A stretch of 64,000 nt of DNA, from assembly GCF_002844555.1 (NCBI RefSeq), contig NZ_PJNI01000001.1, positions 558,001 to 622,000 of the forward strand. Reading direction: 5' to 3'. The DNA comes from Brumimicrobium salinarum. Lineage in GTDB: Bacteria; Bacteroidota; Bacteroidia; Flavobacteriales_D; Crocinitomicaceae. Each line of letters begins with the position of its first letter. The stretch's first letter is position 1. Both the position numbers and the translations under genes were made by a program. This document shows positions 6,571 to 22,179 of the stretch, piece after piece. Below the pieces are notes generated by a model. The model did not search any database, had not been told where the DNA came from, and saw only the letters and a list, made by a program, of their open reading frames with translations.

Positions 6571-7806
6571 TTATAGGTTATCTAAACATAACCTTTTGTA
6601 AATGTCAAAATATTGATTTACACCTTTTTCTAAGGAATACCATTTTTCCGCTCCACTTTTAATTTTCTTTTTATCATAATTGTTCGGTTCTAGTTCAAAG
6701 GAACGGTAGTTTTCCGCATCTAATGTTTCTAACACAATACCAGCGCCAGACTCTTTGATGATTAAGTCCGTATCACCAACTCCTGAATTGCAGATGATGG
6801 GAATACCGAGTGACATAAGCTCTCCTTGTTTTGTGGGAGATGAAGCTTTTTTTGAAAATGTAGGACGAATAAAAAATATAGAAAAATCGAAAAGAGAAAT
6901 GTAAGTAGGAACTTTGTTGTGAGGTGCTCCGATTACAATAATTTCTTCTTCTGGAATGTTTTTTTTACGCGCGTGTTTAATGATGTTCTCCTTAGGTTCT
7001 TTAGAGATGAATAAAAATTTACTTTCTGTTTTTTGTGTACGTAAAACAGCATAGTAATCTAGCATCTCTGATAGCATATACCATGTTCCTATAGAACCAA
7101 TATAACCAAGTACAAAATCTTTTTCGGAAATACCTAGCTCAATTCTTTTATCATTGACTATTTCAGTATTTATAGCATCAGATTGAAAACGATGGATATC
7201 AACACAACAAGGAATTACATCTATTTGAGGTTTATTGGGAAGATTATCCCAAGATTCTATTTCTTTTTTTCCATTCTCTGTTAGTGACACTATAGCATCT
7301 GCCGAGTTGAAAAATGTTATTTCTTTTTGTTTGAAAAACGCATAAGCACGCTGAAAAATAGGATTATTTTTGTTCCAAATACCACCTTCAATTCTTTCGT
7401 CTGGCCAAAAGCCTCGCATATCAAAAACAAATTTTAAATTGTATTTTTGCTGTAATGCGCGGCCTGCGATTGCTGGAATATAACTTCTACAATGTACAAG
7501 ATCAAAATGAACTGCTTTGTGTAATTCATGGGCAACTTTTTTCATCCGCCGAATGTCAAATAGTGTTGAGATTAAAGGTGGGTTTTTAGTATAGGGTTGT
7601 GGGTGCCATACAACTCCATTTTCTTGACATGCTTCTTTTATATTTTCTATATTAACTGCCCGTTCTTTTTTTTCAAAACTAATCAAATGAATACAGACAC
7701 TTTTTGCGGCTAACCCAAACAAATAGGGTAGTACTTGCGATTGACCAAGTGGATCTGTCATCCCATCATAAGACAGGTATAATACATTGATTTTAATCTT
7801 TTCCAT
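6571..7806 (-). CDS. glycosyltransferase, GT4-like (GT-B fold)
   Basis: A 411-residue cytoplasmic or membrane-associated glycosyltransferase. The opening VLYLSYDGMTDPLGQSQV is typical of Bacteroidota GT4 proteins that begin with a glycine-poor donor loop. Further on are LVHCRSYIPA, the start of the C-terminal Rossmann half (LGYIGSIGTWY), and a late SSPTKQGELMSLGIPIICN segment matching the nucleotide-sugar-binding E-x7-E region. Likely role: adding a sugar to a surface polysaccharide or O-antigen. No other polysaccharide gene lies nearby, so the acceptor is unknown. Confidence 0.85.
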   Translation of the reverse strand: MEKIKINVLYLSYDGMTDPLGQSQVLPYLFGLAAKSVCIHLISFEKKERAVNIENIKEACQENGVVWHPQPYTKNPPLISTLFDIRRMKKVAHELHKAVHFDLVHCRSYIPAIAGRALQQKYNLKFVFDMRGFWPDERIEGGIWNKNNPIFQRAYAFFKQKEITFFNSADAIVSLTENGKKEIESWDNLPNKPQIDVIPCCVDIHRFQSDAINTEIVNDKRIELGISEKDFVLGYIGSIGTWYMLSEMLDYYAVLRTQKTESKFLFISKEPKENIIKHARKKNIPEEEIIVIGAPHNKVPTYISLFDFSIFFIRPTFSKKASSPTKQGELMSLGIPIICNSGVGDTDLIIKESGAGIVLETLDAENYRSFELEPNNYDKKKIKSGAEKWYSLEKGVNQYFDIYKRLCLDNL

Positions 7807-17099: not shown

Positions 17100-17561
17100 A
17101 ATATTCAATTTATATAATTGCAAAAATAGAAAGAAGATTGCACTTTATGACCACAGTTATAAGAATTGTGGAACTACAATGAAAAATATAAAAAGGGAAA
17201 ATAATATTTTGTAAGTCTTCAATAGGGTTTTAGGTGAAAGAACGAATCCATTCATTAGTCCAAAATACTACCTGATTGCCTTAATGTGCAGAATGTTTTA
17301 GAAGGTATCATCAACAATATGAAGGGTTTTCTAGTAGGGCGCCTTACAAAAATTAAATTTTTTTCAATTATTTTTTATTTTACTCTTCCTTTTATTTATG
17401 GGGTTATAAACGGTTTTAATTATTTACAAACGAAAAATATTCGACAACAAACGAAAACTAACCGATTTTGGGTTTGCCTTTGTCTCACCTTTGCAGTGTC
17501 GATGGCTGAAAGACAGCAGATGACGAAATGTTCAAACTATTATTAATTAAAATTTACAGAC
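17100..17561. other. divergent region between aspS and the first ssb gene
   Basis: About 460 bases. It holds the aspS -7 box (17121-17128), a small hairpin (CCACAGTT/AATTGTGG, 17151-17171) and a possible promoter for the ssb genes: TTTTG near 17466-17470 and CACCTTTG at 17486-17493, one base off the -7 consensus and with a short 15-base spacer. An 86-codon frame at 17286-17546 lacks family character and is likely not a gene. Confidence 0.45.
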
Positions 17562-17915
17562 ATGAACACGTTAAGAAACACAGTTAGTTTAATCGGGAAC
17601 CTAGGAGCGGATCCAGTAATTACAAAGTTTGGTAATGATCGCAGTGTGGCGCGATTTAGTGTAGCCACGAATGAGTCGTATAAAGACAAAAAAGGTGAGT
17701 GGGTAACCAATACAACATGGCACAATGTAGTGGCATGGGATAAAGCAGCTACGTTATGTGAGCAATTATTAAAAAAAGGAACTGAACTTGTTTTAGAAGG
17801 TAAGCTTGTGAATGATGCATACGAGACCAAGGAAGGTGAAAAGCGTTATAAAACGGAAATATCTATGCGAGAATTTATGCTTTTGAATCGCGATAAAAAC
17901 AAAGCGAGTAAATAA
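17562..17915 (+). CDS. ssb: single-stranded DNA-binding protein, short form (copy 1)
   Basis: A 117-residue OB-fold protein: NTVSLIGNLGADPVITKFGND, RFSVATNES, TTWHNVVAWDKAA, LVLEGKLVNDAYETKEG. It binds single-stranded DNA. It ends KNKASK and has no acidic C-terminal tip (DDDLPF or similar), the part that recruits repair and replication partners. The general ssb of Bacteroidota is about 140-150 residues with that tip, so this is a specialised SSB, PriB-like in length. It is the first of three tandem paralogs on this strand and is followed by a hairpin. Confidence 0.9.
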   Translation: MNTLRNTVSLIGNLGADPVITKFGNDRSVARFSVATNESYKDKKGEWVTNTTWHNVVAWDKAATLCEQLLKKGTELVLEGKLVNDAYETKEGEKRYKTEISMREFMLLNRDKNKASK

Positions 17916-17940
17916 AGTAATCACTTAACCAACCCCTAAA

Positions 17941-17975
17941 AAAAGCGTGTTTGAGCACGGCTTGGACACGCTTTT
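17941..17975 (+). terminator. stem-loop after ssb copy 1
   Basis: A perfect 10-base-pair stem AAAAGCGTGT/ACACGCTTTT with a 15-base loop carrying GAGCACGG. It can act as a terminator or attenuator. The stem-loop lies between two ssb paralogs, and the GAGCACGG motif recurs after copy 3 (18733-18880). Confidence 0.6.
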
Positions 17976-18027
17976 AATTCACTTTTATTAAAAAACATCA
18001 ATTTAATCACGTTTAAAACATAATATC

Positions 18028-18354
18028 ATGAGGGTACAACAAATGAATCACGTTAATTTAATTGGACAAATGTCAACAGATCCAACATTTTTAGAGGTTG
18101 AGGGCGGCAAGAAGGTTGCTCGCTTCTCATTATCTACTAAAGAAAGTTACCTTGATGAGCAAGGCAACACCAAGAGTTTAAAAAACTGGCACAAAGTTAC
18201 TGCTTGGGGGAAATGGGTTCCTGTTTTAGAGCAATTAGGAGCGAAGGGTCAAGCCTTGGCTATTGAAGGACGTTTGCGTTCTCGTTTTTATAAAAAGAAT
18301 GGCGAGCGAAAATCGTTCACAGAAATAGAAATCAATGATTTAGTTATTCTTTAA
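18028..18354 (+). CDS. single-stranded DNA-binding protein, short form (copy 2)
   Basis: A 108-residue single OB fold: NHVNLIGQMSTDPTFLEVEGG, VARFSLSTKES, KNWHKVTAWGKW, LAIEGRLRSRFYKKNGE. No linker and no acidic tip; it ends at the last beta strand (INDLVIL). Met6 (18043) is an equally good start and gives the more typical SSB N-terminus. It is clearly diverged from copies 1 and 3, so the trio is not a recent tandem duplication. About 110 bases separate it from copy 1 and 57 from copy 3. Confidence 0.85.
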   Translation: MRVQQMNHVNLIGQMSTDPTFLEVEGGKKVARFSLSTKESYLDEQGNTKSLKNWHKVTAWGKWVPVLEQLGAKGQALAIEGRLRSRFYKKNGERKSFTEIEINDLVIL

Positions 18355-18411
18355 TTCATTCAACTTATCATTCAATAATTATTCAAATTAATCACTAAAA
18401 CAATATAAATC

Positions 18412-18732
18412 ATGAAAAATCAAGTTCAACTTATCGGAAACATAGGAATAGATCCTGAAATTACCAACTTTGAAAGCGGTGCAAAGAAAGTGCGTTTCAC
18501 TTTGGCAACCAATGAGCGTTACGTAGGCAAAGACGGCAAGCGCACCGACAAAACTTTTTGGCACAATATTCATGCTTGGGGACCTACTGCTAATTACATT
18601 GCTAAATCTGGCAAAAAAGGTACACAAATGGCGATTACTGGAAAATTGGTGACTAGAAAATACTTATCTCGCAAAGGAGAATCAAAATCATTTACTTCGA
18701 TTGAAGTTAAAAACGCAGTTGCGCTAAGTTGA
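18412..18732 (+). CDS. single-stranded DNA-binding protein, short form (copy 3)
   Basis: A 106-residue OB fold: KNQVQLIGNIGIDPEITNFESGAK, VRFTLATNERY, TFWHNIHAWGPTA, MAITGKLVTRKYLSRKGE. Like the two upstream paralogs it stops after the OB fold and lacks the acidic C-terminal tip. Small extra-tipless SSBs may protect ssDNA during natural transformation or plasmid transfer; that role is inference. It is followed by a spacer with several hairpins and a terminator shared with the carotenoid operon on the other strand. Confidence 0.87.
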   Translation: MKNQVQLIGNIGIDPEITNFESGAKKVRFTLATNERYVGKDGKRTDKTFWHNIHAWGPTANYIAKSGKKGTQMAITGKLVTRKYLSRKGESKSFTSIEVKNAVALS

Positions 18733-18860
18733 TCAAATGCATAACGAGGCAATAAATATCATCTCTCGCTAATTTACCTAACCCGTGTTTTACTTGTAGA
18801 GCACGGATGCAAACCACCTAAATCACAACGGTATGCAACCATAGGTTTGCAGTTAGATAG
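18733..18860 (+). other. structured spacer after ssb copy 3
   Basis: A stretch of non-coding sequence with at least two inverted repeats: CCGTGTT/AGCACGG (18783-18806) and TGCAAACC/GGTTTGCA (18808-18851). The segment ACCCGTGTTT...GAGCACGG resembles the corresponding part of the spacer after copy 1. It could be an RNA element or a remnant of a repeated 3' region. Confidence 0.4.
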
Positions 18861-18892
18861 AAAAGGTACGTGGCATTGCGCTACGTACTTTT
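18861..18892. terminator. hairpin terminator between ssb genes and carotenoid operon
   Basis: Stem AAAAGGTACGT with ACGTACTTTT, 10 pairs including one G-U, then a T-rich run to 18900. It overlaps the stop codon of the convergent lycopene cyclase gene and can stop transcription coming from the ssb side. Confidence 0.7.
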
Positions 18893-19582
18893 TGTTTTTT
18901 GGTCCCAAAGTTTACCGAGGTATTCATGTAGAATTACTACAGAAAACAACATGAAAAAGTTGTAAAAAATATCTTCAATGGGAATTGATAGAACACGAAG
19001 TCCAATGATTTCTTTTTCGTTGTACCAAACAACAGGTGCGTCAGTAGCAACACCTGTAAGCACCCCATTTACAATTAAAAAAGGAACTTGTGTAATTAAA
19101 AAAGCGACAATAAAAAATGGGTGCCACCGTGGTGTAAATCCAAAGTATACTATCCAATTAATTAGTCCCGCACCAATTAGGGCAACCGATGTGTACCAGT
19201 TATCATAAAATATTATTCCAAGCACGAGACAAGTAATTGTAAAAAGTAAAGAGAAGAAATAAGAGAATTGCACTGGTCGAAATTTAGGGAAATAGGCTTT
19301 TACGCATTCGTAAATAAAAACACAGGCGTAAGGAATGGTAAAAAAGAACATACATTCTTCGATCGGTAAATTAAAGAAATGGATACCACTTAGGTATTCT
19401 GGATTAAACCCCCACACTCCAATATCCGTAAAAAAAACATCCCAAGCGATAAAAAGGCTTCCTACCACTAAAATTGCAGGGAAAAGTGTTTTCCAGTGGG
19501 TGTAAAAATGAACCTTTTTATCAAAAGAGAGCAAAAAAGGTCCTGCAAGACTCAGTAGATTAATCCAAAGATATAAACTCAT
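18881..19582 (-). CDS. crtY: lycopene beta-cyclase, CrtYcd/heterodimeric type
   Basis: A 233-residue membrane protein with about seven transmembrane segments. It contains two related halves, each with an acidic motif: NLPIEECMFF near residue 72 and SIPIEDIFYNFF near 200. These match the PxE(E/D) motifs of CrtYc and CrtYd fused in one chain (lycopene cyclase domain). It closes the psi ends of lycopene to beta rings. It starts inside the end of crtZ (ATGA overlap), so it is translationally coupled. It is the last gene of the cruF-crtZ-crtY operon. Confidence 0.9.
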   Translation of the reverse strand: MSLYLWINLLSLAGPFLLSFDKKVHFYTHWKTLFPAILVVGSLFIAWDVFFTDIGVWGFNPEYLSGIHFFNLPIEECMFFFTIPYACVFIYECVKAYFPKFRPVQFSYFFSLLFTITCLVLGIIFYDNWYTSVALIGAGLINWIVYFGFTPRWHPFFIVAFLITQVPFLIVNGVLTGVATDAPVVWYNEKEIIGLRVLSIPIEDIFYNFFMLFSVVILHEYLGKLWDQKTKST

Positions 19583-20058
19583 CTTTTTTTATTTTTTAGT
19601 TTATAGGCTTTACGTGACTCTTTGTAGTATTTTAATGGAACAATGAGCATTCCGAAACATTCTCCATGTTCTTTTCCACGGTGTTTATGGTGAACTTTAT
19701 GCGCTTTTCGAATGGCCATAAAATAAGGTCCGTCTAGTTTATCCATAAACTTAAATCTTCGATGAATATAAACATCATGAAAAAGGAAGTAAGCTAAACC
19801 ATAAGCGGCAATTCCAAAGCCAACCCATACAAAAAAGTAGCCTTGATACATGATACCAAGCATGATTAGTAACCATGAAGGAACTGCGTATAGCAAGAAA
19901 AAAATATCATTTTTTTCGAATGGTCCAGGTTCAGGTTGGTGATGGTCTTTATGGAATTTCCATAGGAAACCATGCATGATAAACTTATGATTAAACCAAG
20001 CGCTAAACTCGGTTACAACAAACGTTAGTATTAAGACCAAAGGACCCCACCAATACAT
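19579..20058 (-). CDS. crtZ: beta-carotene hydroxylase
   Basis: A 159-residue non-haem di-iron membrane hydroxylase. All histidine clusters are present: His24, His29, His36, His39, His40 (HKFIMH...HKDHH), His94 and His99 (HDVYIH), and His120, His123, His124 (HKVHHKH). It adds hydroxyl groups at C3 of beta rings, leading to zeaxanthin or, with cruF, saproxanthin-like pigments. Start overlaps the upstream stop (TAATG) and end overlaps the next start (ATGA): a tightly packed operon. Confidence 0.93.
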   Translation of the reverse strand: MYWWGPLVLILTFVVTEFSAWFNHKFIMHGFLWKFHKDHHQPEPGPFEKNDIFFLLYAVPSWLLIMLGIMYQGYFFVWVGFGIAAYGLAYFLFHDVYIHRRFKFMDKLDGPYFMAIRKAHKVHHKHRGKEHGECFGMLIVPLKYYKESRKAYKLKNKKR

Positions 20059-20710
20059 TACAAAACAATATTTAAAATACTAAAAAACACAATTTGAATA
20101 AAGTATAAAACAGTAGCGACTTTGTTTTGTTCGCCTAATTTCATCGAAAAGTAAAGTATTTGAATTACAAAAGCAATTAAAGCCCATCCTAAGAAATTAG
20201 AAAGCGGGATTTCACCACTCCAAACCCAGTAATCACTTTGAACTGCAACTGGTTCAATAAGTACATCGAGAGCAAGCATTAAAAGTGTTCCCAGGAATGC
20301 TTTAAGTAGCCAATGCGTTTTAAGCCGTTCGGCAATAGAGCCTGAAATAATCACAAGCATAATCCAATTAACACCAATAATAATTGGAACACCGTACCAA
20401 AGTGGTCCCAAGTTATTTCCGTAAATGTAATTACCAAAGAGAAGACCTGTGTGTACGCCAAGCCATTCCGCAGCCATTCCGATAAAAAAACCAACAATTA
20501 AGAAAATGAAAAATGTAGTGCCCTTTTTTTGAGTGCAAATAATAAGACAACAAAAGAAATGAGTAAATTCATGAAAGAAAGTGGTAGAAAACTTTCACGA
20601 TAGGCTGAGGTTAGTCCGATAATTCCGACTAAATAAAAAATCACTAGCACTGCTATGAGCACTAATGATTCGTATTTTTTCCATTTCTGGGAAATTTTAT
20701 CTTTATCCAT
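20058..20710 (-). pseudogene. cruF: CruF-like carotenoid hydratase gene with a frameshift in an A7 run
   Basis: Two adjoining reading frames together give one DUF422-type carotenoid biosynthesis protein of about 215 residues, with some six membrane segments. The first frame (20498-20710) runs from MDKDKISQKW and stops after a poly-lysine turn. The second runs from the A-run to 20058 and carries AAEWLGVHTGLLFGNYIYG and VPIIIGVNWIML, the family core. They join at a run of seven A on the minus strand (20524-20530): one extra A, or a -1 slip, restores a perfect continuation (KKKGTTFFIF...). CruF hydrates the 1',2' end of acyclic psi-ends on the route to saproxanthin or myxol. The break may be a true mutation, a slippage-controlled switch or an assembly error. 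Confidence 0.75.
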
Positions 20711-20751
20711 TATTGTTTAAAAGATGAACAACAAAAAGAAACGAATAAAGT

Positions 20752-21129
20752 TTATTTCCATTCTTTAATTCCTTTGTCTAATTCTAACACATAGTTAAAA
20801 CCAAGTTCTTTCATTCTGTTCATGGCTACTTTACTTCTAACACCAACGGCACAATAAACAAGGTACTTTCTGTCTTTGGGCATGTTTTTTAAATCAGCAT
20901 CCATATCACCATCGTTGTACAAAACTAATTTTGCACCTTCAATATGTCTTTCTTCGTATTCTTTAACGGTACGTGTGTCCAAAAGGATGTAATCACCAGT
21001 TTCTAAAGCTTCACGGAATTCGTCGTTACCTACGCTTTCAAATCTTTTCTCTCCTTCAAATTTTTCTTGTCCCCATAAAGCAGTTGTTGCAAATAAAAAA
21101 GACAAGGTCAATAATGTAATAATTTTCAT
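20752..21129 (-). CDS. exported rhodanese-like domain protein
   Basis: A 125-residue protein with a signal peptide (hydrophobic residues 3-19, ending ALWGQ) and a single rhodanese domain. DTRTVKEYEERHIEGA matches the substrate-side motif. The active-site loop is CAVGVRSK with the catalytic cysteine Cys93. It probably binds sulfane sulfur or thiosulfate in the periplasm; the donor and acceptor are unknown. It sits 41 bases before the carotenoid operon on the same strand, without obvious functional link. Confidence 0.88.
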   Translation of the reverse strand: MKIITLLTLSFLFATTALWGQEKFEGEKRFESVGNDEFREALETGDYILLDTRTVKEYEERHIEGAKLVLYNDGDMDADLKNMPKDRKYLVYCAVGVRSKVAMNRMKELGFNYVLELDKGIKEWK

Positions 21130-21264
21130 AATTTTAATTTTAGTTCATTCAAAAATAAGTAAGTTCTATCATTTCACCTATTCATTTCTAATTTTTTATG
21201 AAGAAACGAAATACTAATTGTAAGTTTGCAAGGTTGCAAATTGAGTAATATATTTATTGTGAAA

Positions 21265-22179
21265 ATGAATAAAGAAGTGGTTAAACGAGTTGTTTTAATA
21301 GCTGGAGGATCAGGGCTTATCGGTCGTGAGGTTCAACAAGAATTGAAAAAAGTTGGACATGAGGTGCGTATATTGACCCGAGAAGAGCAGCCTTCTGCAC
21401 CTGCCTATCATTGGAATCCAAAAACAAAGACGATAGACAAGGACGCTTTAAAGGGGGTTCAAGTTATTATCAATCTTGCGGGAGCTGGAATTGCAGATAA
21501 GCGGTGGACAGAAAAACGTAAGGAGGTTATTTTTAATTCTCGGATTAAGACCACACAGTTTTTACATGAAATAAGTCAAAATACACCAGCATTAGTACAA
21601 TATATTTCTGCATCAGGCATTACATGCTACGGGTATGAACATCCACAAAAAATATATAAAGAAAGTGATCCTTTTGGAACAGATTTCCTTTCAACGGTGG
21701 TCAAAAGATGGGAGGAAGTAGCTGATTTGTTTTCACCGCAACAAAAAGTAGTTAAAATAAGGACAGGTGTTGTTTTAACAGAAGAAGGTGGTGCGCTACC
21801 TAAAATTTCTGGAACGATAAAAAATTATGTTGGCGCTCCTTTGGGATCAGGAGAACAAATCATGCCATGGATTTCTTTGCAAGATATTGCGAGAATTTAT
21901 GTTCATGCAGTAAACCATCAACTATCAGGAGCCTATAATGCTTCCGCCGCTAATATTACTAACAAAGAACTAACTAAAAAAGTAGCTAAAAAATTAAATA
22001 AACCGCTTTGGCTTCCTAATGTTCCTAGTTTTGCCATGAAATTGGTGCTTGGCGAAATGTCTTCCGTAGTTTTGGAAGGAACACGTGTTGATAACAGTAA
22101 AATATTAGATACAGGTTTCGAATTTAAACATAGAAATATAAACGAAGTCTTGGATTATATTTATGAGCAACAGGGTTAG
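21265..22179 (+). CDS. TIGR01777-type NAD-dependent epimerase/dehydratase family protein
   Basis: A 304-residue SDR-fold protein starting with the nucleotide-binding loop IAGGSGLIGREV, and with the family hallmarks of this subgroup: YHWNPKTKTID, GAGIADKRWTEKRK, SASGITCYGY, and a C-terminal DUF1731-like end. Homologues (YfcH, SULA-like) lack a known substrate. The start at Met14 is preferred: a -7 box (TAAGTTTG, 21221-21228) lies just before it, so the ATG at 21226 would not be inside the transcript's coding part. Confidence 0.88.
   Translation: MNKEVVKRVVLIAGGSGLIGREVQQELKKVGHEVRILTREEQPSAPAYHWNPKTKTIDKDALKGVQVIINLAGAGIADKRWTEKRKEVIFNSRIKTTQFLHEISQNTPALVQYISASGITCYGYEHPQKIYKESDPFGTDFLSTVVKRWEEVADLFSPQQKVVKIRTGVVLTEEGGALPKISGTIKNYVGAPLGSGEQIMPWISLQDIARIYVHAVNHQLSGAYNASAANITNKELTKKVAKKLNKPLWLPNVPSFAMKLVLGEMSSVVLEGTRVDNSKILDTGFEFKHRNINEVLDYIYEQQG

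Follow-up and report, generated by a model that had tools for sequence, protein, structure and literature searches.

A family-specific trio of tail-less single-stranded DNA-binding proteins behind a phased-repeat promoter of the Bacteroidia

A second chromosomal paralogue of the single-stranded DNA-binding protein (SSB) is often tied to natural competence (PMC3334931). Among Gram-positive bacteria, SsbB/YwpH of Bacillus subtilis and SsbB of Streptococcus pneumoniae are competence SSBs, short OB-fold proteins standing beside a canonical, tailed SSB. In integrons, the host SSB opens the folded attC hairpins unless these are captured by the integrase (PMC8946536); chromosomal integrons were reported to be very rare in Bacteroidetes, with IntegronFinder 2.0 detecting a complete integron in only one genome, that of Salinibacter ruber (PMC9024848). 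A non-canonical, phylum-specific LexA SOS regulon of Bacteroidetes includes ssb and recQ in some species and has the palindromes CTAA-N5-TTAG or GGA-N5-TCC as operators (PMC8565304).

The stretch of Brumimicrobium salinarum DNA analysed here (hereafter the window, 64,000 nucleotides) contains three consecutive ssb genes on the forward strand, belonging to types A, B and C: ssbA (17562..17915, 117 amino acid residues), ssbB (18028..18354, 108 residues) and ssbC (18412..18732, 106 residues). The three proteins match the Pfam SSB family (PF00436) with 104.3, 77.1 and 86.5 bits, respectively, against a cut-off of 26, and TIGR00621 with 117.3, 78.4 and 96.9 against a cut-off of 53.95; matches to solved SSB structures were also obtained. 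A preliminary description had presented them as a row of OB-fold SSBs of these lengths, different from each other in sequence, devoid of the acidic C-terminal tip and flanked by aspS and carotenoid genes with no mobile genes next door. All of this was borne out: pairwise identities are 39–42%, the C-terminal ends (…NRDKNKASK in A, …EINDLVIL in B and …VKNAVALS in C) contain no DDDLPF-like tip, and the flanks in the window are as described.

The genome, 98% complete with 86 contigs totalling 3.41 Mb, was searched by profile and harbours eight SSB genes, so the trio does not constitute its only SSBs. Among them are a canonical SSB ending in …EEDDDDLPF, i.e., with the DDDDLPF tip that is missing from A, B and C, a second complete A-B-C array (contig C1, 440.1–441.2 kb) and a distant SSB gene of 148 residues on contig 11. 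As is the case for SsbB, the members of the trio are thus additional, tail-less chromosomal paralogues. The trio and the adjoining carotenoid block are present twice (window 17408–22179, and C1, 433–449 kb); the second block is without two carotenoid genes and is arranged as in a related genome (G001), a resemblance suggesting that the copy in the window either stems from an old duplication or was transferred within the genus. One gene of the carotenoid cluster (window 20058–20710, reverse strand), of about 217 residues in relatives, is split by a frameshift into open reading frames of 139 and 70 residues, which reflects either real decay or an assembly error.

By analogy, the trio would work most like the Gram-positive competence SSBs, and both may plausibly serve to coat ssDNA while DNA is being acquired. 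In contrast to these, Brumimicrobium has three tandem paralogues, duplicated as a set, which are preceded by a phased-repeat promoter and associated with a small zinc protein (named ZnR, see below); neither a shared competence regulator nor a copy of the operator at its comEC and dprA was found.

The locus belongs to the genus Brumimicrobium and the family Crocinitomicaceae, according to the titles of the sister loci. Nearly all of the 59 relatives scanned have two to eight SSB genes, and, in the 40 array or single loci that were read, most of the family shows the A-B-C order, some genera having instead an A' gene plus another type (D). Other families of the order contain one to three tail-less copies, and most of the class contains a single tail-less ssb, with two or three tandem copies elsewhere. 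Since separately assembled genomes throughout the family repeat this order of three genes, the array is neither a chance arrangement nor an assembly artefact; the statement that such a set is unusual in a chromosome does not hold for Crocinitomicaceae, where it is ordinary. Close relatives also lack the acidic tip, as do nearly all orthologues read. Nevertheless, in some lineages (G051, locus L125, and G120, locus L237) the paralogue behind the same operator retains an acidic LPF/PF-type end (EDNLPF; EEALPF, EEPMPF), and tail loss is consequently not universal.

In a tree of 112 SSBs, built from a short alignment and with many forks left open, the tail-less and canonical proteins separate (support 99), B forms a single clade (100), and A (86) and C (91) cluster by type and not by genome, indicating that the duplications are older than much of the radiation of the family. 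Comparison of the window copy with the second array or with relatives gave pS values of approximately 0.7–0.8, near saturation, and pN values of 0.05–0.13. These values show strong purifying selection on A, B and C, which are old paralogues, and the second array did not arise by recent copying. The genes on either side of the array vary from genus to genus, so no particular neighbour goes with it; an operon with a conserved neighbour was ruled out, since the flanks are unrelated beyond the genus and the carotenoid cluster accompanies the array only within it. The trio is, therefore, a family-specific tandem expansion of a tail-less SSB paralogue that is found across Bacteroidia. Separately, we observed genes for four-helix-bundle proteins (IVP/S23-like) between or beside the ssb genes in four genera (L052, L064, L066 and L080), and two other copies, located away from ssb, that have the ssb operator themselves (L312 and L313).

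A hairpin with a 16 bp stem, either terminator-like or a processing stem, was predicted by folding between ssbA and ssbB (17941..17975, forward strand), and a second, terminator-like hairpin lies 3' of the array (18861..18893, forward strand). The A-B hairpin occupies a similar place, with freely varying sequence, in all 13 arrays folded from Brumimicrobium and the nearest genera, and the B-C gap is mostly without one. In the simplest reading, the A-B stem, by processing or termination, would reduce B and C relative to A. Between ssbC and the terminator there is also a short genus-conserved element (window 18733–18880, beginning AACGGTATGCAACCAT).

Upstream of ssbA, the alignment of promoters (A1) revealed a core promoter (17486..17502, forward strand), composed of a -7-like box, CACCTTTG, and a conserved CA.TGTCGA just 3' of it, preceded by a phased operator of AAACG/TTCGA/ACCG half-sites (17408..17466, forward strand). 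The CG dinucleotides of this operator are located at 17411, 17431, 17442, 17452 and 17463, corresponding to positions -79, -59, -48, -38 and -27 from the TTTG of the -7 box. In nearly every genome, CG-centred half-sites, mostly [A/T]AACG, ACCG or TTCGA, stand upstream of a -7-like box of the form xAnnTTTGCA, whose CTTTG is invariant in the alignment. Among 31 aligned promoters from several families, CG is present at -59 in 26, at -48 in 28, at -38 in 15 and at -27 in 26; the spacing from -59 to -27, of 11, 10 and 11 bp, places the half-sites on the same side of the helix. None of the 31 contains a TTTG at -33 with the usual spacing, which suggests that the ssb promoter depends on an activator. 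As read from the aligned promoters, the array of half-sites 10–11 bp apart replaces the -33 element in a dedicated promoter. Promoters of PhoB/OmpR-type activators have tandem half-sites approximately 11 bp apart in place of the distal promoter element, and the likeness is one of mechanistic analogy only, since the half-site sequence differs and the candidate regulator is a zinc treble clef protein in which no response-regulator domain was found. We found no earlier description of the phased-repeat promoter or of its ZnR partner in the open literature, although absence there is no proof of novelty.

A sequence profile built from this alignment (R1) retrieved from the B. salinarum genome the second array (76.6 bits) and the window array (72.9 bits), the third-best match scoring 13.6. 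In counts uncorrected for phylogeny, R1 sites were identified in 53 of the 59 relatives, in 181 of 395 genomes of the class under strict filters and, in a sample of 296 genomes of the phylum, in 54 genomes of the same class and practically none outside it. Of 29 loci obtained for that sample, 28 encode a tail-less SSB directly 3' of the site, and the remaining one ends at a contig edge. We consider it almost certain that promoter and tail-less ssb form a class-wide unit, and the occurrence of the operator at a single tail-less ssb across the class indicates that the promoter predates the triplication.

The ZnR protein has 115–145 residues and a CxxC…CxxxC treble clef (alignment A2), which the Pfam treble clef DUF2116 matches only below its cut-off; no match was found in the PDB, and no ZnR was found in viral contigs. 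Its gene is often divergent from ssb, 21–150 bp away across the operator (e.g., in G060, G087, G105, G144, G155 and G270). ZnR is present in all 54 sampled genomes of the class that have the operator and in 10 of the 19 that do not (Fisher p 9.5e-7, with no correction for phylogeny); within the order, it is absent from G041, which has neither the operator nor a tail-less ssb. It is also missing from two incomplete genomes of the order, and stand-alone copies with no operator nearby occur in many genomes, including that of Brumimicrobium. ZnR is the best candidate regulator of the operator, a proposal drawn from co-occurrence and gene arrangement to which we give even odds.

The operator is almost exclusive to tail-less ssb: sites elsewhere are few and sporadic, and in one batch ssb accounted for 26 of the 41 sites read. 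In the Brumimicrobium genome the two ssb arrays are the only places that have it, with no clear site at the genome's own integrase or ZnR genes. In some species of Bacteroidetes, ssb is reported under motifs other than this operator (PMC8565304). In other genomes, R1 sites precede recQ (G002 and G005), ZnR (G017) and tyrosine recombinases, the latter in three relatives (G016, G026 and G048) and in two further genomes of the class (G159 and G250); in G159 the site is between ZnR and the recombinase, and in G250 it consists of a run of CAAACGAC-type repeats. Further targets are a UvrD-like helicase, a 3'-5' exonuclease-like gene, an IS200-type transposase, two four-helix-bundle genes and a peptidase; some targets have no obvious role in DNA metabolism, and several more sites have no clear gene. 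Integrases account for five of the few tens of sites away from ssb, which in our judgement, and not by a formal test, is well above the chance expectation for genes of which a genome has one to five.

The recombinases are Xer/IntI-like: NF040815 is the best or near-best model and exceeds its cut-off in two of four, and the IntI model TIGR02249 gives 202.1, 192.9, 207.4 and 194.8 bits, all below its cut-off of 265. Arrays of attC-like repeats are present 3' of a tyrosine integrase in G013 (L241), G159 (L245) and G250 (L246), with the ssb-type operator only in the last two, where the repeat ends are also attC-like (GCCAAC…GTTGGC and GCATAAC…GTTATGC). The G013 platform, which is linked to ZnR and has a different intergenic motif, contains approximately ten or more cassettes with attC-like repeats of about 180 bp; the two of these repeats that were folded gave z-scores of -1.9 and -0.4. 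Given the attC-like repeats beside an integrase, these three loci are, as far as gene and repeat arrangement tells, integron-type platforms. Small-cassette arrays with attC-like repeats lie by Xer/IntI-like integrases at 7079–18769 of L241, 6757–7893 of L245, 145–6015 of L246 and 14443–17928 of L242, often with a divergent ZnR; no attC array is present beside the integrase of Brumimicrobium itself. In most ZnR-linked platforms the gap between integrase and ZnR contains a TATACG or GTAGATTTAAACGTTTAAATCTAC motif, often with a 12 bp period, which is related to the ssb-type operator but different and was not counted as such. A near-palindrome resembling GTAGATTTAAACGTTTAAATCTAC is conserved between ZnR and integrase, for example in L169, L171, L172 and L176, and could represent either an attI site or an operator that has diverged.

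Vibrio-type chromosomal integrons are thus resembled by several Bacteroidia, in which the operator of the tail-less ssb precedes an Xer/IntI-like integrase, with attC-like arrays in two of them. They differ in that the Bacteroidia integrase has an extra N-terminal region, often has a divergent ZnR, scores below the cut-off of the IntI model and is not controlled by the reported SOS motifs. Because SSB opens attC hairpins (PMC8946536), co-induction of SSB with the integrase would be mechanistically sensible.

Overall, the best explanation of these observations is a ZnR-linked programme of ssDNA handling for DNA acquisition or recombination, which we hold at a probability of roughly 0.5; a role of the tail-less SSBs in DNA acquisition specifically falls slightly short of an even chance. 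We hypothesize that a multimeric activator, most likely ZnR, would assemble along the phased sites in response to a DNA-uptake, ssDNA or damage signal and recruit RNA polymerase. The tail-less SSBs, then abundant, would coat ssDNA without recruiting replisome and repair partners, given the missing tip, so that incoming or excised ssDNA would stay intact for recombination by RecA or an integrase. The three paralogues of Crocinitomicaceae would divide this work among them, the A-B hairpin probably raising the level of A above those of B and C. The specialised ssDNA-handling unit that the preliminary description had proposed is in this respect supported by conservation, purifying selection, the dedicated class-wide operator and the sharing of this operator with integrases and recQ, whereas its suggestions of a plasmid or phage origin and of rarity in a chromosome were not upheld.

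Somewhat unlikely, in our view, is that the trio is a competence accessory set, as Bacillus SsbB/YwpH and Streptococcus SsbB, induced at competence so that ssDNA taken up is stored and protected, the integron link being only a side use of that DNA. The tail-less proteins of approximately 110 residues, their match, if weak, to the solved ssbB structure 3vdy and the presence of comEC in the Brumimicrobium genome would fit such a role, but the search for competence genes under the operator gave no site upstream of comEC or dprA, and in the present assembly a frameshift interrupts dprA. The latter gene (C1, 126417–127042; L284) spans two frames, possibly owing to that frameshift, and comEC seems intact.

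It is unlikely that the operator defines an SOS-like DNA-damage regulon with the tail-less SSBs as damage-induced back-up SSBs. Sites at recQ, the UvrD-like helicase and the 3'-5' exonuclease-like gene in some genomes are consistent with such a regulon, and expression of the endogenous integron integrase of Vibrio cholerae is reported to follow SOS induction (PMC8191803). However, the two known Bacteroidetes SOS motifs were found in none of 42 upstream regions and were rejected as the control of ssb, and their palindromic form differs from the phased direct half-sites described here. In addition, no member of the classical SOS set (recA, dinB and umuC) was seen with the operator; two sites near recA (G366 and G617) were withdrawn as recA targets, since a convergent gene separates each site from recA.

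A housekeeping function, with A, B and C as general-purpose SSBs or as parts of a heteromeric SSB, adjusting how ssDNA is bound during replication, and with the operator as a growth-phase or replication-linked promoter, is quite unlikely. The trio is near-universal in the family and strongly conserved, and the joint retention of three lineages suggests division of labour or hetero-oligomers; but a canonical tailed SSB exists alongside, the operator is common to ssb and integrases, and the number of genes varies by lineage, so that a fixed heteromer is no general requirement. Finally, capture of phage or plasmid genes, which often include ssb, is highly improbable and was rejected from neighbours, tree and sequence comparison, since the arrays are vertically inherited through the family among unrelated, non-mobile neighbours, and the nearest mobile ssb genes, from Bacteroidota phages and plasmids, are only 44–50% identical (all phage and plasmid matches of A and B being below 60%), against up to 92% within the family.

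Returning to the ZnR-linked programme, we tentatively extend it to a regulon of the Bacteroidia, possible rather than probable, in which ZnR would read the phased AAACG array and co-induce tail-less SSBs, integron-type integrases and helicases, constituting a class-wide, LexA-independent switch for ssDNA capture and protection whose SSB arm is a three-protein set in Crocinitomicaceae. If this is true, Bacteroidia, soil, marine and fish-associated ones among them, would gain a dedicated, testable programme for ssDNA, its candidate regulator named and its operator recognisable, and accessory SSBs would be linked to chromosomal integrons, reported as very rare in the phylum (PMC9024848). The trio itself provides clean material on SSB function with the interaction tip removed and the gene triplicated.
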